From positions 29,480 through 93,479 of IMG/VR virus record IMGVR_UViG_3300042562_001667: DNA of 64,000 nucleotides, one strand, 5' to 3'. Below the pieces are notes generated by a model. It had not been told where the DNA came from, ran no database searches, and worked only from the letters and a program-made list of their open reading frames with translations. Origin of the DNA: a virus. The first letter of the stretch is position 1, and every line of letters begins with the position of its first letter. Positions 2-55,167 of this stretch are shown here, one piece after another. The position numbers were made by a program, and so were the translations under genes.

Positions 2-3000
2 CCTTGTTCTCCAATATCATCCAATTGTGTTATTTGGCAAGGTCCTGATATTCCTTGTATTAACCTTTGTAATGGTGATACTATTAGTGATGTAATAGGT
101 AAGTTAGCAGAAGAACTTTGTACTCTTATAGATACAGCTTGCCAATGTAATCCTGATATTTCAGGTTTAACATTAAGTTGTTTACCTGAAGAAACTCCTT
201 TAGAGTTAGAATCTGTTCTTCAAGCTATTATAGATTATTTATGTAATTTAAATCCAGGAGGTCCTGGCACATTACCAAATATAACTCTTCCAGGTTGTTT
301 GCAATATGATGATCCTTTAGGTAATCCTGTTTTACAATTACCTTTAGATCAATTTGCAACTTTAATTGGTAACAAAATTTGCGATATTCTTTCAGATATC
401 AGTAGTTTACAACTTGCTGTTTATGATCTTCAGATAAGAGTAACTGTTCTTGAAAACTGTGTTTTACCTTGTGGCACTATACCAGCTTCTGGTGGTGATT
501 TTGATATTATATCTGATTGTTTATTTGCCGGTGTATTAGTTCCTATTTCACAACTTGTTCAAGGACTTGAATCACAATTTTGCGAATTTAGAAATGCTGT
601 AGGTTCAGTATCTTTAATTAATCAAGCTATTTCTGCTCAGTGTCTTTTTGGAACTACACCAAGATTAAGTGGTCCAGGTACATATTCTGCTCTTAGCGGT
701 TGGGTTAATTCTCCAAGTACATTAGCACAAAGTAATGTTAACCAATGGCTTGCAATATGTGATTTATATGCAGCAGTATCCGATATTCAAAACAACTGTT
801 GCGATGTTGGTTGTGATGGTGTAATATTTAGTGTTTCTTATACAACAATTGATTCAAACGGAGATGGTGTTGTAGAAGCTTTAAATTTGAATTTTACAAG
901 CTCAAATATTCCATCAGGATTTAATGATTGTGGTGGAAATACTATAATTACTATTACAGATTCAAACGGCTCATCTATAACACAATCTTTAAATGTAACA
1001 GCATTATCCAACGATCCTCTTGGTGTTACTGTAAGTGTAGCTAGTTTAAACACACTTGCATCATTAGTTTTAAGTGTACCATTTTGTGTTACCGATGGAA
1101 CAAGTCAGTGCTCTAATTTACAAACAACTATTGTTCCTTTAAATATTCCTTGTCCAACTTCTATTTCTGCTACACCTATTCTTACTGATATTAATGTAAC
1201 TTTTACAAATGCATTAGGAACAGGTGTAACATATACAATTGTTGCAATTGATACAACTACTGGAGCAAGTTTGGGAAGCACTACAATAACAAGTCCTTCT
1301 ACTACAGTAGCCCATACATTTGGTGGAGCAATACCTGGTAGAACATATAATATTATTGTTACAGTTTCTCAAGGAGCCTCTGTTAGAACATGTACTCCTA
1401 TAGCTGTAGCTGTACCTGGTTCAACTTGTGTAAATTATTTTACTGCTAGCACTAGTAGTGTAAATGGAGTAAGTGATATTTATTTGGGGCATGAGGCACC
1501 TGGTGGTGATGTAAAAACTCCTTATTGGTACAATCCAATTACTCAACAAATTGTTGTAGGAACTTCAGGTACTGTTACTTGTGATGCTCCTCTTGCTACA
1601 AACTTAAGTATTAGTATATCTGGCGTTATTACGGTTGATCTTAATTACTCAATTGGTGGTACCGCAATTACAACAAACTATAGTCTTGATGGTATTTCTT
1701 GGAGTCCTAATTTGACTGCAGGTCCTGGTACAAGAAATATTGCAACAGGTGCAACATCAGGTTCTGTTTACTTTAGAGCAAAAACTCAATGTACTGTAGG
1801 TAGCACAGAATATTTAATTTATAGATATGATTTTGCAACAGACTATTGGACACTTTTAGCTAATCCATCTGTTACACAATGTGATAATGGTTCAATTCCA
1901 GGAACATGTCCTACAGGTGTTGAAGTTGCAACTCAAGTGCTTTCTTGTGATGGAACAAATTATAATGTATTTGGAGGAGGTGTTAACAGCAAATGGTATT
2001 ATGTAGGCAAATATATAAGATCCGGAAATACAGTTTATATTTATGCCGGTTGGAAGGATACATTTACTCCAGGAACTGCAGCAAGTTCTGTAGTAGAATG
2101 TTGTGTTTGTCCTGCTTTTATTTCAACAGATACTATTCAAATATTCTGCAATGAAAGCGGATCAACAACTTTTAGAGTACCCTATTTGTTAGGTGAGGGA
2201 TCTCCTAATATGACAATTAGTGCGATTCCTGTTAATGGACTTCTTACTCAAAGTAGTTCTGTTTCAAATGAGTTTACTTATACAAATACTGTTCCTGGTC
2301 AATATGGAGATACTTTTGGAGTAACTCTTGTACCTTCAGTACTTGGTGTATGTGAACAGGCTACTGCAACAATTCAAATTCAAATAATTCCTTGTGAAGT
2401 ATCTCTTTTATGGGAGAATCAACCTATTTATGCTTTTATTGATACAGGAAGTTATAGTGCTACAGAAGGTCAAGAAATTCAAGTTGGATTAACTAATCTT
2501 GCCGCAGAATGGAATACACTATTTGGATATGTAGGAGATATATATTTTATTCCTGTTGCCGATAGTAAGTATTTAGGTTATCAGAAATCTATTGTAGATG
2601 ATGGTGCTAGTGCAACATTAGATACAGATCCAGCTTGGGTAGCTTTACAAAATTTACCTCCTTTGTGGACAGGATCTGGGCCACAGTATAAAGATGGTGC
2701 TTTTCTTATTAATTTTGTTAATATAGCTGCTGTAGATTATCATGCTACAACATTAGCTTCTGGATTTACCGGTCAACCATCCTCACTATATGAAGATGAT
2801 TATGATGCTTTTATAGATGCAATTACAGGTACTCAAACAAGTACTTGGGCTCAAGCATTAAATATTACTGTAGATCAATATCCTGATGGATTTAGTGCTG
2901 TATTAAATCCTTTTACAGTTAAAGGTAGTACAAGTGCAGATGCTGCAATGATTTTGCATGCATTAGCTGCATACACTGGAGAAATGATTCCTCCTGCTGA

Positions 3001-3496
3001 ATATGGTATTGAAACTGTAGTTGATGTTACAGGATACTTAATGCAAGGTTTAGTTCCATCTGCTTCAAATCCATACAGTGGTTTTGTAACTACTGGCGGG
3101 AATACAATTTTTGGTTTATATCAGTATGGTTGGTTGGTTTATTTAAACAACATAGAAAAAGCTTTAACGTATACTCATATTAGTAGTAATCAAGATGAAC
3201 AATTTAATAATCAACTTACATTAGCTATTCAAGATTGTACTGGTACATATCCTAGTACACTGCTTACTTTAGATGGTTATAGAATGCTTGATTGTAATAC
3301 TGGTGCTATTATTAGGGTTGATTGGTTAGCTAGTTCTTTACCTGTGATTGGAGAGTTTTGGAGCTTTACTGATCCTATTGCTGGATTGACTTGTGGTGAA
3401 ATTATTTCTGAAAAAGAAATTTTTTCAAGTGTAGATTATACAGCACCTGTTTCTTCACCAGCATTGATAACAGGATGTGGAGATTGCGGTTTTTAA
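2..3496 (+). CDS. Cys-rich tail fibre/appendage protein, 5' truncated by the window
   Basis: The reading frame is open from base 2 without a start codon, so the gene begins before the window; the visible part is about 1164 residues. The sequence is low-charge, rich in Thr, Ser, Asn and Val and carries dozens of cysteines, many in short C-x(n)-C patterns near the N-terminal end. Segments around residues 280-380 of the visible part look like beta-sandwich (FN3/PKD-like) repeats. The last ~350 residues change character and are more globular. This composition is typical of host-binding fibres of Bacteroidota phages. It precedes another Cys-rich protein and the pair ends at a terminator, suggesting one transcription unit. 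No enzymatic motif was recognised, and the exact position in the virion is inference. TAA stop at 3494-3496. Confidence 0.6.
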   Translation, partial: PCSPISSNCVIWQGPDIPCINLCNGDTISDVIGKLAEELCTLIDTACQCNPDISGLTLSCLPEETPLELESVLQAIIDYLCNLNPGGPGTLPNITLPGCLQYDDPLGNPVLQLPLDQFATLIGNKICDILSDISSLQLAVYDLQIRVTVLENCVLPCGTIPASGGDFDIISDCLFAGVLVPISQLVQGLESQFCEFRNAVGSVSLINQAISAQCLFGTTPRLSGPGTYSALSGWVNSPSTLAQSNVNQWLAICDLYAAVSDIQNNCCDVGCDGVIFSVSYTTIDSNGDGVVEALNLNFTSSNIPSGFNDCGGNTIITITDSNGSSITQSLNVTALSNDPLGVTVSVASLNTLASLVLSVPFCVTDGTSQCSNLQTTIVPLNIPCPTSISATPILTDINVTFTNALGTGVTYTIVAIDTTTGASLGSTTITSPSTTVAHTFGGAIPGRTYNIIVTVSQGASVRTCTPIAVAVPGSTCVNYFTASTSSVNGVSDIYLGHEAPGGDVKTPYWYNPITQQIVVGTSGTVTCDAPLATNLSISISGVITVDLNYSIGGTAITTNYSLDGISWSPNLTAGPGTRNIATGATSGSVYFRAKTQCTVGSTEYLIYRYDFATDYWTLLANPSVTQCDNGSIPGTCPTGVEVATQVLSCDGTNYNVFGGGVNSKWYYVGKYIRSGNTVYIYAGWKDTFTPGTAASSVVECCVCPAFISTDTIQIFCNESGSTTFRVPYLLGEGSPNMTISAIPVNGLLTQSSSVSNEFTYTNTVPGQYGDTFGVTLVPSVLGVCEQATATIQIQIIPCEVSLLWENQPIYAFIDTGSYSATEGQEIQVGLTNLAAEWNTLFGYVGDIYFIPVADSKYLGYQKSIVDDGASATLDTDPAWVALQNLPPLWTGSGPQYKDGAFLINFVNIAAVDYHATTLASGFTGQPSSLYEDDYDAFIDAITGTQTSTWAQALNITVDQYPDGFSAVLNPFTVKGSTSADAAMILHALAAYTGEMIPPAEYGIETVVDVTGYLMQGLVPSASNPYSGFVTTGGNTIFGLYQYGWLVYLNNIEKALTYTHISSNQDEQFNNQLTLAIQDCTGTYPSTLLTLDGYRMLDCNTGAIIRVDWLASSLPVIGEFWSFTDPIAGLTCGEIISEKEIFSSVDYTAPVSSPALITGCGDCGF

Positions 3497-7550: not shown

Positions 7551-10500
7551 ATGGCTAAACAATATTCAAATTCATCATCTATAGATACTAATAGCTTTAT
7601 AAAAGGTATGGTGAAGGATTTATTTGCTTCATTTCAACCAAAAGAAAATTGGTCACATGCAAGAAATGCATATAATAATTCAGTTGATGGGGATACTAGA
7701 GTTATAGGTAATGAACCCGCAAATCTTCAGTGTGGTATTGTACCATATACTATAATTGGATTTATTCATAAAAGAGCTGATCAATGGTATGTATTTTCCA
7801 CTGATGATACAAATTCTGAAATTGGATTTTATGATGAAAGTACTTGTAGTTATACAACTATTGTAAATAATCCATGTTTAAATTTTAATAGGAAATATTT
7901 AATTATAGGTGCCTCAAAAGAAAATTATGATTGTACTTGGCAAATTTATTGGGATGATTCCAACAATCCATCAAGAACATTAAATGCAGATGATATACCG
8001 TGGGTACAGCAAGTGGTAAGTCCTCCTGGAGCTGATTGTGTAATTTATGCTGATACAGATGTTTTAGATTGTGAAAGATTAAGATTGGCTCCAGTTGTAG
8101 ATACACCTTGTATTAAACTAACAAGAGCTCAAGATGGTGGTTTATTAAGAAACGGTACATATCAAGCATTTTTAGCTTATGTGGAAAATGATCAAGTTGT
8201 AACTGATTATATTGGAATATCAAATTTACAAAGTCTTTTTAATCATGATAATAATGCTGGTTCATTAAATATTGAAATAACTAATCTTGATAAAGACTAT
8301 TTCTATTATCAACTTGTAATACTAAGTAATAATCAGCAGAATATTGTTGCTAAAGTTATTGGTACTTATAGCACAGAGCAATCTGTTATTAGTTTAGACT
8401 ATATAGATCCAGCAACTGTAAGTGTTGACTTTACAGTTTTATTTACAAGAAAACCTGCATATGAAAAATCAGATGCAATGTATGTTGTAAATGATTATTT
8501 GATAAGACAAGGTCCAACTGAACAGTTTGACTTTAACTACCAACCTATTGCAAATCAAATTCAAGTTCAATGGGTTGTTGCTGAATATCCTCAGTCTTAT
8601 TATTATAAAGGTGGTAACAAAACATCTTTTTTGAGAGATGAAGTTTATTCATTTTTTATTAGATGGATTTATAATACTGGTGAAAAAAGCAAGTCTTATC
8701 ATATACCAGGTAGACCTCCTAGATTAGCTGGAGAAGATCAATATGGTAATGTTGTTAATGAGATAGGTTTATCTGGTGGTATTAATACTATTGATGGTCC
8801 TAATTACAATTTTGAAATATTTAATACAGCCACTATAATATCTCTTGCTACACAGACTTTACCAGATGGTGGTATTATAGTTGGTCGAGGAGACTTAGCA
8901 TACTGGCAATCAACTGAAATATATCCAGCTAGTAAACCTGAAATTTGGAACTCTACATATGTAGATCCTAATACAGGTGTAAACATTGGCGGTACAACAA
9001 ATCAACAATTTGATTTGTGTGGTAAACCAATTAGACATCATAAAATGCCCACTGAAGAAAAAAGTCCAGTGTTGGGGTTATATAATCAATCTTCTGATTC
9101 TATAAGAATTCTTGGTGTTGACTTTAGAAATATAGGAAGACCTAAATTTAATGATGGAACATATATTCCTAATGTTGTTGGTTATGAAATTTTAAGAGGA
9201 TCAAGAGAAGGAGCTAAGTCTATTTTAGCTAAGGGTGTGTTTAGGAATATGCGGGAATATACAATTCCTCAAGGACAGAATAATATTCAAGGGTTATATC
9301 CAAACTATCCTTACAATGATTTAAGACCTGATATTTATTTTCATGATGGTGCAAGTGGTGTTGGTCCTGCAAAAAGAACTGATGGTTGTGATGATTTAAC
9401 AAACTCTGTTGCTAGTTTTTTACCAATTACTGGTTACTCACAAAGTGTTTTTACATTTCATTCACCTGAGTTGATGTTTAAGAGACCATTCTTAAATGCA
9501 TATGAAGCTAGAATATATGGTCAGTTAAGCGGTCAATCTGAAGGATATTTTATTGCATCTGAACAACATCCTCAATATAAATTACTTAGAAATGTAGCTG
9601 CAATACTATCTGGAATTATTGGTATTGGTTATGCAATTAATGCAATACAGGGTGTTAGAAAAGATAAAATTAATTATGCATTTCCAACTTGGGAAGCAGG
9701 AAATGCATCAAGTTGGACTTTTGCAGGCCCTGCAGGTGCTGGCCTTACTTTACCTCAGCAAACAGCAAACGTACTCCTTGCCACACCAATTATTACAGCT
9801 ATAAATACTTTAGGTAACCCAGGAGAAATTCTTACAGATAGTGCTTTTGCCGTTGGAGCCCTTTTAGCGGGAACAGGTGTTAGACAACTTGCAAATACTC
9901 AACAAGCTACTGTTCAAAGTCTTCTTGGTTTATCACCATTAATAAGAGGTGGTAGTCTTGAAAAAGAATTTAATTTAGATAGTAATACAGGAGGACTTCC
10001 TAGTCTTATTCAAGGTTTACTAGGAGCTTATACAGCTAGACAAAAAATTGCAGAAGGTGCTCAAGAAATTATTGATCTTATGTATAATTTTGTTCAACCA
10101 TCTGATTTTGCTTTTAAACATAATTCACATGCTGATATATTTAATTATGCATCAACAATTTTTGGAAATAGATATAGATCAAGAATAAAAGAACAAAATT
10201 ATATTGGATCAGCGTTTCAAATTTTTGATAGTCAATATAAAATTAATAATTTATTTAGACCAAAAACAGTTGCAATATCAATTGCTAATACATTTAATGA
10301 TCCGACAGTCACTGATGTTTCAAGATATGTAATTGGAGGAGGATATAATGCAACAGCTACTAGCATTGTACCATCTAATAATTTTTTAGAGACTCCGGGT
10401 GTTAGTAGACTTACTGATGTTTCCATGTTATATGGAGCACTTAAGTTTAATTTTCAAAATCAATATGGTCAAATAGAAGGAATTAAACAGGTGCCTATGA

Positions 10501-13500
10501 GAGGCTGTATTAATTTTTTAGATCCAACCAAACCTGATATCTTTAAATACAGATCTGAAATATTTTTTTCAGGAGATACTTATGTGGGTAGATATACAGA
10601 AAAGGTGATAATGCCTATATTTTCTGATTTCTTATTTGGTCAACCTGATGGTTATACATACAACTATTTAAAAAGAGTAAATATTCCTTATCCAAGATTT
10701 TGGATGAATACTCAGAAGTTTGATACTACCAAACTTGCTGATGCAATAATGACGCTTGGTATATCTTCCGCACTGAATACTGGAAGTGCAGATGGTCTTT
10801 TACCAAATGATTTGTATTATTTGGATAGAGGAAATAGCTGTAATGTATTTGCTACATTATTTAGTGGTAATGATCCAAATCCCAAATTTGCAATGAGATA
10901 TGCTTATATGTATACTCATTGTAATGGTGTATTAGATTTCTTTACAGAATCTGAAATTAATTTAGTACAGAGAGATTGGGAAGATAGAAAAAAAGATAGA
11001 CATTATGATTCTTATGAATATAATAATGTAGATGATTTATTTGATGCTGAAATTATTAAAGAAGATAATTTTTATAAGTATGATTATTCTTTAAGTGCAA
11101 GCAGATTTGTTACAAACTTAACATCATTTGGAGAAATACAAACAAGAGATTATAATCCTCAAATTGCAGAGACTTGTTTTGATTATTACCCTAAGAGACT
11201 TATATATTCTTTGCAAGCACAGGAAGAAGCAAAAAAAGATTTTTGGAGAGTTTTTTTACCAAATAACTATAAAGATTTTAAAGATAAGGTTAGTGTAATT
11301 AAACCTATAAATAAAAATGGAGCAATTATATTTTTTCCTTATCAGTCTCCGCAGATGTTTCAAGGAGTTGATACATTACAAACAGATCTTGGAACTAAGA
11401 TTACTATAGGTGATGGTGGATTATTTGAGCAACCTTTTCAAAATGTTGCAAATTCAGATTTACCTAATGAATATGGATCTTGTGAAAGTGCAAGAACTAT
11501 AATTAATACACCTCTTGGTTTATTTTATTTATCACAAGCTCAAGGTAAAGTTTTTCAATATGCAGATGGTTTAGAGAATATTGCAAATAGAGGTATGAAG
11601 TGGTGGTTTAATAAATATTTACCATCAGTTCTTATAAGAGAGTTTCCTGAATTAGAGGAAACACCTTTGGCTGATAATACTGTAATTGGGGTTGGTTGTC
11701 AAGCTGTATATGATATTAATGATGATATTGTTTATTTCTGTAAAAAGGATTATAGTGTTAAACCTCAATACAAGAGTGGTATGCGGTTTGATCCTGTAAG
11801 TTACAGATTTATATATACATATCCTTCTGGTTTAGAAATTTCAATTGAATTAGGAGATCCATTTTATTTTGATGATGCTTGTTGGACAGTATCATATGAT
11901 CCAAAATCTAAAGCATGGATTTCATTTCATGACTGGTGCCCAGAACTTACTATTCCAAGCATTAATCATTTTTTAACAACTAAGACAATTAATTCTGAAG
12001 AACCATACTGTCCTCCAGGATATGCCTATAATCCGAGTACAGGAGACTGTGAAAAATTAATTGATGAATCTGCACCAGCTGTAGTTACAGTTGATCAAAT
12101 TGAAGCTTTAATAACAGGTGGTCCGCAGGAATGTCTTATTGATGTTATTATTGCCGTAGATACATCTGGAAGTACAGGAGGACCAGGAGGACCCACGAAT
12201 CCAATTGGTCAAGCTGAATTAACTTTTGTTACAGAGTTTATAAATAATTCTAATATTCAATCTGGGTTAATAGGGGGTTTTATTCAGATAGGTATTACAT
12301 CATGGTCAAACGTTGTACCTCCTGTTCTTAATAATGTTAGCATGAATCCAAATGGATTTTCAATGAGTAATACATTAACGGCTACACAAGTTAATACATG
12401 GCTTACAGCTAACTGGCAAATGGGGGGAACAGAAATTCCTCCTGCACTTGCTTTTGCTGAAAATAGATTAAATGCAAAGGTTAGTTCACAATTAGGAGAT
12501 AGAAGTTCTTTACCAAACTTTAGACAATATATTATTCTTGTTACAGATACAAATACATATCCGGGTTTAGATGTAGGTTGCGGATATCAATCATCTACAC
12601 TAGGTGGTTCATGTGTTGGTCCAGCTAAACAATTTGTAATGGCTGTATATGCTAGTCCAAATAATCCACCAATACCAACAGCTGGATATCTAGAAGAAAT
12701 CACCTGTGATCAACCGCAGCTTCAGTTTGCTGTTTCAGGGGTTGATTTACCTGGTATTGCCGTTGTAGCAGAAGCTGTTATAGAAAAAACTTGTGGTGAA
12801 AATTATGAATGTAATTGTCCTCCTGGATATACATTAGTTTATCCTAGTACAGCAACTCCACCTATTCGTTGGACATTAGCAAACGGTGAATGTTTTCCAA
12901 ATGGGCAAGGTACTTACGCACCTATTTGTAGAAAGGTAACATGTAATTGTCCTCCACCACCTGTTCCTTGGGCTCAAACAACCACTACAGGTCAGTGTGA
13001 TAATTTATATTTGACAGGTCCTAATGGGGATCCTGATTATATAAATATGAATCCGTTAATATGTAATTACTTTAGTTTAGAAACAACTCCTCCAAGTTTT
13101 AGAGTTGGTTCAATCTGGAGACACAATTATCGTTGTGATCTTTATGCAAATTACTATGGTGATGATTATCCTTGGGAAGTAGAACTAATTGAGAACACTG
13201 GACAAATAGTAAACACTGTAAGAAGTGTTGAATATCAATTAGAGTCTTATGTTTATAAAGGGGATCTATATCATGGCTGTGGTGATGATAGATGGCATGA
13301 TCTTGATTTTAACTTTGATGAAGCGATTCTTTATAATACAGAACAAGTATCTGGACTTTTAAGATTAGAACTTAATCCTAAAGAAGATCCTTATAATATA
13401 CTTCAATATCCTATTATTGGAACAAGTGATATAAGAATACTTTATTCAAAAGAAGAACAAAAGTATAGATTCAATCAGTTTTGGGATATTACAAATGATA

Positions 13501-13721
13501 GAGGTGAGTTTACAAACAGCGAGCAAGAAATCTTTATAACAAGATTAAATGGTTACATTAGAGATCTTAATGCAAATAATTTAAACTATCAAAAACCCGA
13601 AGAACAAAGAAAAAAACTTAGACACTATTATAACAAGTTAATTTTAAGAAGAAAAAATTCTGGAAATAGGAAAATGCTTCTTAAGTTAAATAACACTAAA
13701 TTACTTTTATCTCTTAGATAA
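7551..13721 (+). CDS. Giant muzzle/stabilisation-like tail protein with internal VWA domain
   Basis: 2056 residues. The N-terminus (SSIDTNSFIKGMVKDLFASFQP followed by a beta-propeller-like region with GDTRVIGNEPAN) matches the pattern of crAss-like stabilisation or muzzle proteins, which close the tail tip. Residues ~620-830 include hydrophobic Gly/Ala-rich helical stretches. An insertion at about 1530-1780 is a von Willebrand A domain with a full MIDAS: D1537-T-S1539-G-S1541, T1627 and D1666. It is flanked by Cys-rich EGF-like pieces (CPPGYAYNPSTGDC near 1490; CNCPPGYT near 1755). The last ~100 residues are charged and Lys-rich. TAATG overlap with the next gene. The muzzle role is inferred from N-terminal pattern and position; the VWA assignment is directly supported by motif. 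Confidence 0.7.
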   Translation: MAKQYSNSSSIDTNSFIKGMVKDLFASFQPKENWSHARNAYNNSVDGDTRVIGNEPANLQCGIVPYTIIGFIHKRADQWYVFSTDDTNSEIGFYDESTCSYTTIVNNPCLNFNRKYLIIGASKENYDCTWQIYWDDSNNPSRTLNADDIPWVQQVVSPPGADCVIYADTDVLDCERLRLAPVVDTPCIKLTRAQDGGLLRNGTYQAFLAYVENDQVVTDYIGISNLQSLFNHDNNAGSLNIEITNLDKDYFYYQLVILSNNQQNIVAKVIGTYSTEQSVISLDYIDPATVSVDFTVLFTRKPAYEKSDAMYVVNDYLIRQGPTEQFDFNYQPIANQIQVQWVVAEYPQSYYYKGGNKTSFLRDEVYSFFIRWIYNTGEKSKSYHIPGRPPRLAGEDQYGNVVNEIGLSGGINTIDGPNYNFEIFNTATIISLATQTLPDGGIIVGRGDLAYWQSTEIYPASKPEIWNSTYVDPNTGVNIGGTTNQQFDLCGKPIRHHKMPTEEKSPVLGLYNQSSDSIRILGVDFRNIGRPKFNDGTYIPNVVGYEILRGSREGAKSILAKGVFRNMREYTIPQGQNNIQGLYPNYPYNDLRPDIYFHDGASGVGPAKRTDGCDDLTNSVASFLPITGYSQSVFTFHSPELMFKRPFLNAYEARIYGQLSGQSEGYFIASEQHPQYKLLRNVAAILSGIIGIGYAINAIQGVRKDKINYAFPTWEAGNASSWTFAGPAGAGLTLPQQTANVLLATPIITAINTLGNPGEILTDSAFAVGALLAGTGVRQLANTQQATVQSLLGLSPLIRGGSLEKEFNLDSNTGGLPSLIQGLLGAYTARQKIAEGAQEIIDLMYNFVQPSDFAFKHNSHADIFNYASTIFGNRYRSRIKEQNYIGSAFQIFDSQYKINNLFRPKTVAISIANTFNDPTVTDVSRYVIGGGYNATATSIVPSNNFLETPGVSRLTDVSMLYGALKFNFQNQYGQIEGIKQVPMRGCINFLDPTKPDIFKYRSEIFFSGDTYVGRYTEKVIMPIFSDFLFGQPDGYTYNYLKRVNIPYPRFWMNTQKFDTTKLADAIMTLGISSALNTGSADGLLPNDLYYLDRGNSCNVFATLFSGNDPNPKFAMRYAYMYTHCNGVLDFFTESEINLVQRDWEDRKKDRHYDSYEYNNVDDLFDAEIIKEDNFYKYDYSLSASRFVTNLTSFGEIQTRDYNPQIAETCFDYYPKRLIYSLQAQEEAKKDFWRVFLPNNYKDFKDKVSVIKPINKNGAIIFFPYQSPQMFQGVDTLQTDLGTKITIGDGGLFEQPFQNVANSDLPNEYGSCESARTIINTPLGLFYLSQAQGKVFQYADGLENIANRGMKWWFNKYLPSVLIREFPELEETPLADNTVIGVGCQAVYDINDDIVYFCKKDYSVKPQYKSGMRFDPVSYRFIYTYPSGLEISIELGDPFYFDDACWTVSYDPKSKAWISFHDWCPELTIPSINHFLTTKTINSEEPYCPPGYAYNPSTGDCEKLIDESAPAVVTVDQIEALITGGPQECLIDVIIAVDTSGSTGGPGGPTNPIGQAELTFVTEFINNSNIQSGLIGGFIQIGITSWSNVVPPVLNNVSMNPNGFSMSNTLTATQVNTWLTANWQMGGTEIPPALAFAENRLNAKVSSQLGDRSSLPNFRQYIILVTDTNTYPGLDVGCGYQSSTLGGSCVGPAKQFVMAVYASPNNPPIPTAGYLEEITCDQPQLQFAVSGVDLPGIAVVAEAVIEKTCGENYECNCPPGYTLVYPSTATPPIRWTLANGECFPNGQGTYAPICRKVTCNCPPPPVPWAQTTTTGQCDNLYLTGPNGDPDYINMNPLICNYFSLETTPPSFRVGSIWRHNYRCDLYANYYGDDYPWEVELIENTGQIVNTVRSVEYQLESYVYKGDLYHGCGDDRWHDLDFNFDEAILYNTEQVSGLLRLELNPKEDPYNILQYPIIGTSDIRILYSKEEQKYRFNQFWDITNDRGEFTNSEQEIFITRLNGYIRDLNANNLNYQKPEEQRKKLRHYYNKLILRRKNSGNRKMLLKLNNTKLLLSLR

Positions 13722-54291: not shown

Positions 54292-55167
54292 ATGATATTA
54301 GCAATAAACGGCATATTAGCTACTTCAGCAACACCTGCAACCCCGTTGTTATTGGATTTATATCCAAATAGCACGGCTGCATATTCTTTAAGAAAGTTGA
54401 CAAATGCTTATGGAGGAGCGGCAATTCGTGTAAGACGTTCAAGTGATAATGCAGAATCAGACATAGGTTTTGTTGCAAATGTTTTAGATACAGCAAGTTT
54501 GCTATCATTCTGTTCTGCTACAGATGGATTTGTAGTAAAGTGGTATTCGCAGGTGGGAGGGTCTACTTATGATGTGTTACAAACTACTGCATTAAAGCAG
54601 CCAAAAATTGTAATATCAGGAGTTTTAAATACTATAAATCTATTAGCATCTTGTCAATTTATATCTGCATCAAGTACAGGATTACTTACATCTGCAGGGG
54701 TTAGTGTACAAAATGGGGAATTTTTAGCGTGTGCAGTTGGTTTAGTAAATACAACGGCTCCCTTAAATTGTTCAATATTAGACCAAGATGACTTAGTTTT
54801 ACCTAATGGTAGAGTGGCTCAATATATTTATAGATCTACAAATGTTGTAAGAAATTTATTTTTTAATACAGCAGGTTCATTTACTACAGTAAATAGCCCA
54901 ACAGTTTCCGCAAATACTCAATATGTATTTAAAACATCAAAAGTTGGAACTCAAATACGTGCAGGATTAAACAGTGGAGCGAATAATACTGCCACCTATT
55001 CAGGCACACCAAGAACAACATTAGTAAAATTAGGACTTGGTTCATTAAATAATAACAGTCAGGACTTTTTAGACGGACAAATTCAAGAGGTAGTAATGTT
55101 TAGTGGAGACAATTCATCAAATGAAGTAAACATTGTAAATAATATTAGGGCATATTATGGTATATAA
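54292..55167 (+). CDS. Fibre-associated ArfB/LamG-like carbohydrate-recognition protein
   Basis: 291 residues. AAYSLRKLTNAYGGAAIRVRRSSDN ... GFVVKWYSQVGGSTYDVLQTT ... QPKIV is a pattern I associate with GH54 alpha-L-arabinofuranosidase B N-terminal domains and LamG-like jelly rolls. The C-terminal KLGLGSLNNNSQDFLDGQIQEVVMF also fits the end of such a fold. It may bind or trim host surface glycans. Which residues would be catalytic cannot be shown here, so binding only is an equal possibility. It directly follows the receptor-binding fibre gene and overlaps the next gene by 11 bp. GC content stays elevated as in the fibre. Confidence 0.6.
   Translation: MILAINGILATSATPATPLLLDLYPNSTAAYSLRKLTNAYGGAAIRVRRSSDNAESDIGFVANVLDTASLLSFCSATDGFVVKWYSQVGGSTYDVLQTTALKQPKIVISGVLNTINLLASCQFISASSTGLLTSAGVSVQNGEFLACAVGLVNTTAPLNCSILDQDDLVLPNGRVAQYIYRSTNVVRNLFFNTAGSFTTVNSPTVSANTQYVFKTSKVGTQIRAGLNSGANNTATYSGTPRTTLVKLGLGSLNNNSQDFLDGQIQEVVMFSGDNSSNEVNIVNNIRAYYGI

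Follow-up and report, generated by a model that had tools for sequence, protein, structure and literature searches.

A VWA domain on a Cys-rich stalk in the muzzle protein of a crAss-like phage, a candidate exchangeable host-recognition module

What would a phage muzzle protein do with a VWA domain? The question is raised by a stretch of viral DNA of 64,000 nucleotides (the window; its source record is 93,479 bases long), in which an earlier note had described a VWA domain with a complete metal-ion-dependent adhesion site (MIDAS), flanked by Cys-rich EGF-like segments, as what looks like an adhesin inserted in a tail muzzle-like protein, which could bind a host surface protein at the tail tip. 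Our analysis suggests that the insert is probably an exchangeable host-recognition module carried on the muzzle, with a VWA head, a complete MIDAS and a Cys-rich stalk. That an adhesin was inserted fits our data on swapping well, but the EGF-likeness of its flanks is weak and its location at the tip is doubtful.

A VWA domain inserted in a crAss-like muzzle protein

The gene in question is an open and intact reading frame on the plus strand (7551..13721) that encodes 2056 aa. PHROG virion structural families match the protein, and a profile of 23 muzzles matches one solved sequence in the PDB, gp44, the muzzle of phi-crAss001 (7qok, 1.1e-5), with its best stretch over gp44 residues 6–395. Foldseek also matches the modelled C-terminal part of an insert-less relative (L063) to 7qol (7e-10) and 7qok (6e-9), on the basis of a low-confidence model (mean pLDDT 63.1; TM-score 0.22 of query, rmsd 16.5). 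By profile and Foldseek, the homology to gp44 covers the ring-joining and propeller part by which a Crassvirales muzzle is recognized, and the protein that had been called muzzle-like is a homologue of the crAss-like muzzle. Relatives of it are found in 32 phage records, all below 60% identity, and at 77 viral-contig loci (among the best 80 of 95 confirmed relatives). Three matches in genome_contigs sit in MAG bins named Campylobacteraceae (two) and Pseudomonadales (one), and we take these for candidate misbinned phage contigs.

A protein of 5139 aa encoded downstream also bears on the identity of the phage. Its C-terminal 2839 aa match 45 records by tblastn (by first word: Bacteroides 27, uncultured 8, CrAssphage 7, and Carjivirus, Bacteriophage and Kehishuvirus 1 each). 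The best 15 of the 45 are crAss-like or faecal phages, several of them annotated as RNA polymerase, with E values of 1e-6 to 9e-6 over 3–6% of the query. This match to the giant virion RNA polymerase of crAss type is weak but specific, and together with the homology to gp44 it leads us to regard the window as part of a crAss-like phage.

The insert comprises residues 1479–1853 (375 residues; 11985..13109, plus strand). An alignment of 71 muzzles has the VWA as a clean insert between the anchors NHFLTTK and SIWRHN, the presumed halves of a propeller hairpin. Within the insert, the VWA domain (residues 1528–1748; 12132..12794, plus strand) is held by the left half (residues 1479–1527; 11985..12131, plus strand; motif CPPGYAYNPSTGDCE) and the right half (residues 1749–1853; 12795..13109, plus strand) of a Cys-rich stalk, and the two halves are kept together in relatives that have no VWA. 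The range first proposed for the domain, 12121–12720, spans most of the VWA but ends about 75 bases early.

Pfam VWA_2 matches the window segment below its gathering score (E 0.0031, 18.6 bits vs. 27). Because this single sequence stays under the curated cut-off, the VWA assignment rests on the predicted fold and on a profile of 34 homologous inserts. Among these inserts, 13/34 match PF00092 and 10/34 match PF13519 at E ≤0.01 (best 1e-7 and 2.8e-6, respectively), and in the PDB their profile picks out mussel PTMP1 (2.9e-5) as well as the I domains of integrins alpha-1/alpha-2 (best 0.0028). A tblastn search of the phage collection up to E 1 returned no relative of the window VWA. AlphaFold, given a 394-residue window segment and the alignment of the 34 inserts (the window's own included), produced a model with pLDDT 88.3 that does have the VWA fold the earlier note had proposed to check. 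Its best structural match is the VWA of CMG2 (Z 19.6, 2.3 Å, 173 residues), followed among the cases considered here by the VWA of the fimbrial tip protein Mfa5 (Z 18.1 over 181 residues) and the I domain of integrin CR3 (Z 17.9; all VIA-align). Most titles among the top 50 structural neighbours name VWA or I domains, or proteins known to us to contain a VWA, and the neighbours include the VWA-bearing pilus or fimbrial tip adhesins SpaC, RrgA and Mfa5.

All five residues of the predicted metal site lie where they had been placed before: D1537, S1539 and S1541 in the motif DTSGS (12159..12173, plus strand; codons starting at nt 12159, 12165 and 12171), T1627 (12429..12431, plus strand) and D1666 (12546..12548, plus strand). 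Across the 34 inserts the D and first S of DxSxS are invariant, while the second S, T1627 and D1666 are each at least 90% conserved. A full MIDAS is present in 76/81 VWA-bearing representatives of a wider set described below (S or T accepted at the third place) and incomplete in five (L025, L028, L052, L057 and L071). Residues 1528–1748 are thus confirmed, at the level of a predicted structure, as a VWA domain with a complete MIDAS motif.

The description of the flanks as Cys-rich and EGF-like stands in its first half, with 15 Cys in the 375-residue insert. We found no EGF-type match in the window's own segment at E ≤0.01; cEGF matches 9/34 inserts at this threshold (best 5e-5), the three cEGF matches with scores reach 16.4, 16.4 and 17.3 bits, where the cut-off is 26.6, and the window's stalk has no EGF or cEGF profile match above cut-off. 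CBM_14 also matches some stalks weakly, below cut-off where scores are given.

The flanks of the insert align collinearly to gp44 up to residue 1203 and from residue 1234, in two alignments that are individually insignificant (i-Evalues 9.1 and 260). In excerpts of PMC10172136, the IG2 with the crass domain of gp44 lies between residues 318 and 1021. Because the flanks map past this stretch, we expect the insert among the later blades of the propeller rather than in the distal crass fold; on this alignment it probably sits in a hairpin of the muzzle beta-propeller. The L063 model is poor around the slot (residues 294–337 have pLDDT <50), so the position of the slot rests on the sequence alignment to gp44 and on the overall Foldseek match. 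A late propeller hairpin, placed by a locally weak alignment, makes a location at the tail tip doubtful. The inserts presumably lie outside the particle, since six inserts of ~40 kDa could not fit the channel.

Slot content and exchange among relatives

The insert is not a universal part of muzzle proteins, as the comparison proposed in the earlier note established. Searching with the muzzle itself, by six peptide patterns of which one also falls in the stalk, we recovered 67 non-identical muzzles. Of these, 49 have a VWA, 5 have no insert, 5 have only the stalk, 4 have PA14-like content and 4 have other content, such that 18/67 (L052 and L062, described below, among them) are empty, stalk-only, PA14-like or other. 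A larger pooled set, which includes several copies of one contig, holds 167 muzzle-bearing sequences (163 with both anchors) and yields 103 representatives, defined as different muzzles of at least 1600 aa. This set favours VWA because part of it was found with the insert as query. A VWA match is present in 81/103 representatives, whose states are VWA (80), none (9), stalk (6), PA14-like (4) and other (4); one muzzle counted as PA14-like also holds a degenerate VWA (L052), and one counted as other has a weak VWA match (L062, E 0.0023). Rough k-mer clusters are VWA only in 53/72 cases, and one cluster mixes VWA with stalk-only muzzles.

Slots without a VWA take several forms. The slot holds 3–11 residues in 9/103 representatives, and just 21–28 residues separate the anchors in L043, L059, L063, L074, L076 and three named phages. 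About 160 residues lie between the anchors in L019, L023, L033, L036 and L056, corresponding to the Cys-rich stalk without a VWA. A four-row profile of the PA14-like content matches PDB entries 6qdi (9e-4) and 6qe7 (0.019), with Pfam matches below cut-off, and the cassette shared by L032 and L044, counted as other, has no PDB relative (best E 0.69) and no Pfam match over cut-off. Since 5/67 relatives from the muzzle query have no insert and 5 have only the stalk, the VWA is dispensable for the virion, which fits an adhesin but also a decoration.

We also found further slots. A second one (residues 1400–1436; 11748..11858, plus strand) holds no domain in the window's phage and is filled in relatives, by VWA-like domains in L041 (PF00092 1.9e-5, above cut-off), L069 and L073 (both below cut-off) and by a metzincin in L053 (Reprolysin_5 2.7e-6, above cut-off; motif HELGHVIGAKHEH). 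A third slot (residues 1092–1119) is filled in L062, L066 and L071.

On a FastTree phylogeny of the muzzle without its insert, presence and absence of the VWA require 12 changes, of which starred branches force 11, compared to an average of 20.9 changes for shuffled labels; these 12 changes cannot separate gain from loss and carry a long-branch warning (L043 with the L059 group). A k-mer screen gave 50 candidate pairs. Outside the insert, identity reaches 93% or more in 32 of them, and 29 of those have a VWA in both members. In these 29 pairs the VWA is less similar than the rest of the muzzle in 21, equally similar in 3 and more similar in 5. VWA identity drops to 45–69% in 7/29 pairs, from three phage groups, including L117/L138 (96.8% identical outside the insert vs. 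45.1% in the VWA), L014/L021 (97.8% vs. 59.3%), L013/L014 (97.0% vs. 60.1%) and L011/L015 (95.8% vs. 68.7%). The closest VWA to that of L138 is in L123 (76%) and the closest to that of L014 is in L012 (87%), in both cases in another muzzle lineage, which argues that VWA alleles move between lineages. In the pair L049/L055 many differences fall in one block with synonymous changes and a change in length, resembling L009 by eye; on its sequence this block looks like recombination. A second variable stretch lies at about residues 720–840 in the numbering of the compared muzzle proteins.

Differences between close relatives are concentrated around the predicted metal site. In eight hand-chosen close pairs, counted over positions present in the window's insert and with MIDAS-face loops drawn from the secondary structure of the AlphaFold model, 96/703 aligned sites differ in the MIDAS-face loops, compared to 61/976 elsewhere in the VWA and 26/1160 for the stalk. 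None of the pairs differs at any of the five MIDAS residues. The excess in the MIDAS-face loops is seen in 7/8 pairs and is absent from L007–L029 (8/85 vs. 13/122), and in L026–L039, whose members share just 84% identity beyond the insert, the stalk is as variable as the core of the VWA (12/144 vs. 7/122). Because L055 enters two of the pairs, which are thus not independent, and because the loops were drawn after the alignment had been seen, a Fisher value for this excess is descriptive.

A neighbouring gene, upstream of the muzzle gene, shows a related organization. It occupies 299..3496 (plus strand), with a frame that extends upstream of 299, and combines a conserved N-terminal part with an exchangeable C-terminal domain. 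From this conserved start and changing end we infer that it encodes a fibre. The N-terminal part is present in 67 loci, and among 59 non-identical proteins 29 have an end akin to that of L006, which is of VWA type (this seed counted), 13 have the window's domain and 17 something else. Such an end passes the PF00092 cut-off in L029 (2.2e-6) and stays under it in L006. The C-terminal domain of the window's own fibre-like protein has a relative in slot 2 of the Cellulophaga phage phi4:1 muzzle (27% over 291 residues, E 2e-16). VWAs occur in both genes, muzzle and fibre-like, in 25/59 cases (for 7/59 the table holds no muzzle state). A profile of the muzzle VWA (A1) compared by hhalign with one fibre protein (L029) showed no relation (E 0.26), on which ground we rejected a common origin of the muzzle and fibre-end VWAs; direct VWA exchange between the two genes therefore lacks support. 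The strongest circumstantial argument for a binding role is that related modules occur both on a fibre-like protein and on a muzzle.

Candidate roles of the insert

Taken together, a metal site that stays fixed within a variable rim, alleles that are swapped, a slot that also takes unrelated domains, and related modules on a fibre-like protein point to receptor binding. In the mechanism that we favour, the VWA head on its Cys-rich stalk would plug into a probable hairpin of the muzzle beta-propeller, giving six copies per virion if the muzzle is hexameric as in phi-crAss001. A metal ion, presumably bound by D1537, S1539, S1541, T1627 and D1666, would take an Asp or Glu carboxylate on a surface ligand, with the choice of ligand set by the variable loops that surround the metal. 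The insert would thereby provide a secondary, muzzle-proximal attachment once a cell has been located by the fibres. The data themselves show the predicted fold, the intact MIDAS motif, a patchy occurrence, swapping, and variability around a fixed metal site; on this reading the module would in addition bind a metal and a ligand, stand outside the particle and have a part in host range. The points that count against host recognition are the dispensable VWA, the incomplete MIDAS in 5/81 representatives, a location in the propeller rather than the crass fold, the 8/29 close pairs in which the VWA is no less similar than the rest, and the two exceptions (L007–L029 and L026–L039) among the eight pairs.

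One extension of host recognition is bolder and, in our view, unlikely. The muzzle propeller may be a multi-slot docking platform (for VWA, PA14 and metzincin domains) on which the VWA acts like an integrin I domain, such that metal-dependent capture of a host surface protein would pull on the hairpin, open the tail gate and release DNA and cargo proteins. This idea is suggested by analogy, because integrin I domains are likewise plugged into a beta-propeller and the propeller of gp44 holds the gate loop. If true, such coupling would link receptor binding mechanically to gate opening and to the release of DNA and cargo proteins.

Two alternatives give the module another role on the virion. It might stabilize or decorate the muzzle, by making subunit contacts or covering the gate, with no binding partner beyond the virion. 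VWA domains often make protein–protein contacts inside complexes, the insert belongs to a structural protein, and loss of the VWA is tolerated in some lineages. However, an internal contact would hardly allow replacement by unrelated domains or distant VWA alleles in muzzles that are 95–98% identical, and the clustering of variation on the MIDAS face in 7/8 close pairs also argues against it, leaving decoration rather improbable. Alternatively, the module could bind abundant material near the host (mucus, particles, extracellular polysaccharide or other cells) and keep the phage nearby without deciding the host, and both the PA14-like domains in the slot (6qdi, 9e-4) and the weak CBM_14 matches in stalks could point to glycans. 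The fast replacement of alleles and rim loops resembles an arms race with a receptor more than adaptation to a stable polymer, and we regard adhesion to such material as rather improbable too.

Other possibilities concern how the VWA is used in assembly or how its variation arises. VWA–MoxR pairs have been proposed in virion assembly, with group 2.2 jumbo phages and Acidianus two-tailed virus cited in excerpts of PMC7824862, and the VWA might accordingly be a co-chaperone that recruits a MoxR-type AAA+ ATPase. Weak AAA_5 matches occur in 18/23 records searched and AAA_3 matches in 2/23, yet neither profile is matched above cut-off in any of the 23. The weak AAA_5 matches fall in ORFs of 423–440 aa, or of 393–396 aa in two records (G019 and G020) that have VWA-less muzzles and account for both AAA_3 matches. 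The VWA is also missing from close relatives, and the virion protein carries it within a stalk that is rich in Cys and looks extracellular; we rejected a MoxR partner, which is very improbable, on the lack of matches above cut-off in the 23 records. Diversification by a diversity-generating retroelement (DGR) would explain why differences in close pairs cluster in surface loops, and vWA domains do occur in bacterial DGR target proteins according to excerpts of PMC10907252. RVT_1 was found in 0/23 records searched (the near-identical record of L002 included, the window's own G000 left out), compared to 3/14 control genomes, and the L049–L055 block with synonymous changes points to recombination and not to adenine-directed mutation. 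On these two grounds DGR diversification was rejected as scarcely credible.

Host recognition by an exchangeable module remains the reading that we prefer. A swappable metal-dependent adhesin in a gate-bearing propeller would be a candidate for muzzle-level receptor recognition in crAss-like phages, and slot content suggests a way to read host range in their uncultured relatives.

Comparison with known systems

The closest structural reference is gp44 of phi-crAss001 (PMC10172136; 7qok, 7qol), homologous to the window's muzzle by profile (1.1e-5) and Foldseek (7e-10). Excerpts of that report attribute variation in muzzle length to insertions in the crass domain and IG2 and propose that the change is triggered by the crass domain on contact with the cell. 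The window's insert instead falls between gp44 residues 1203 and 1234, in the propeller part and not in the regions named there, and the main text of the report does not mention VWA. More broadly, "VWA" and "Willebrand" are absent from the main texts of those crAss muzzle-protein papers that our searches returned, and these searches of the open-access literature found neither a VWA in a muzzle nor cassette exchange there, in line with the earlier remark that muzzles are not described with such a domain. In phages, excerpts of other papers report a Klebsiella phage protein with a VWA-like part of unknown role (PMC9960720), and VWAs as a cobaltochelatase subunit, in a protein of unknown role, and as a MoxR partner or Ter protein (PMC7824862).

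A VWA tied to phage-derived tail fibres has been described before, and within our open-access searches it is the VWA in a muzzle that appears to be new. In excerpts of work on eBAP4 eCIS fibres (PMC12923769), VWA is among the domains tied to a phage-tail-derived target-binding fibre and modular acquisition is discussed; the carrier there is a fibre and here a muzzle, and those excerpts mention no propeller slot, muzzle or MIDAS. BACON-domain and DGR-diversified tail proteins of gut crAss-like phages are likewise fast-evolving binding modules of tails, but they involve other proteins, other domains and another mechanism of change, and the available text of the review that treats them (PMC10136315) contains neither "VWA" nor "Willebrand".

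Outside phages, Mfa5 (6tnj), SpaC (6m48) and RrgA (2ww8) also carry a VWA in the adhesin of a surface organelle; these organelles are bacterial pili, and the relation in sequence seen here is that of the VWA superfamily. Integrin alpha I domains are VWAs with a MIDAS (CR3, Z 17.9), and there, as probably here, the VWA stands in a beta-propeller. The integrin propeller has seven blades and receives the I domain between blades 2 and 3, an insertion point that differs from the one in the muzzle. The resemblance, drawn by analogy, is likely to be convergence and would give phage tails a parallel to the integrin layout of a VWA in a propeller.

Insertions in the muzzle of relatives

The muzzle of the window's phage, a 2056-residue gp44-like tail protein (7551-13721, plus strand), has relatives in other records (here given L-numbers) that carry different inserts. 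In L053 (muzzle residues 1470-2332) the second slot, which corresponds to window residues 1400-1436, is filled by a metallopeptidase domain of metzincin type, with an above-cut-off match to Reprolysin_5 and the motif HELGHVIGAKHEH. This domain may represent a protease at the tail end of a crAss-like phage. In slot 1, at window residues 1479-1853, L032 and L044 have the VWA domain replaced by a cassette some 400 residues long, for which we found neither a PDB relative nor a Pfam match above cut-off. The slot 1 insert of L060 contains one complete VWA domain and, behind it, another VWA-like stretch that is degenerate. A third large insertion, of 370-440 residues, is present in L062, L066 and L071 at the site equivalent to residues 1092-1119; the two scanned, those of L062 and L066, gave no Pfam match.

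The window muzzle itself has a hydrophobic stretch from about residue 678 (nucleotide 9582 onward), with the 19-residue mean exceeding 1.5 starting at 678. In several close pairs, the region next to this stretch (residues 720-840 in the numbering of those proteins) ranks second in variability.

Genomic settings of related muzzles

Contigs with this muzzle occur inside MAGs named Pseudomonadales and Campylobacteraceae (L165, WLWP01000004.1; L164/L166), and all three are probably misbinned phage. In gut phage csAssE-Sib (L082, OR575929.1), two tRNA genes come after the muzzle gene, and beyond them lies a gene whose annotation reads Ro sixty-related protein, a family with a VWA domain.

Other genes of the window

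The 291-residue product of 54292-55167 partially matches PF09206, the catalytic domain of alpha-L-arabinofuranosidase B, above cut-off (1.9e-7). At 299-3496 lies a gene for a fibre-like protein, with a reading frame that extends upstream beyond the listed TTG start. This protein combines a conserved N-terminal part with an exchangeable C-terminal domain, and its C-terminal end is related to a domain that the Cellulophaga phage phi4:1 muzzle carries as an insert.
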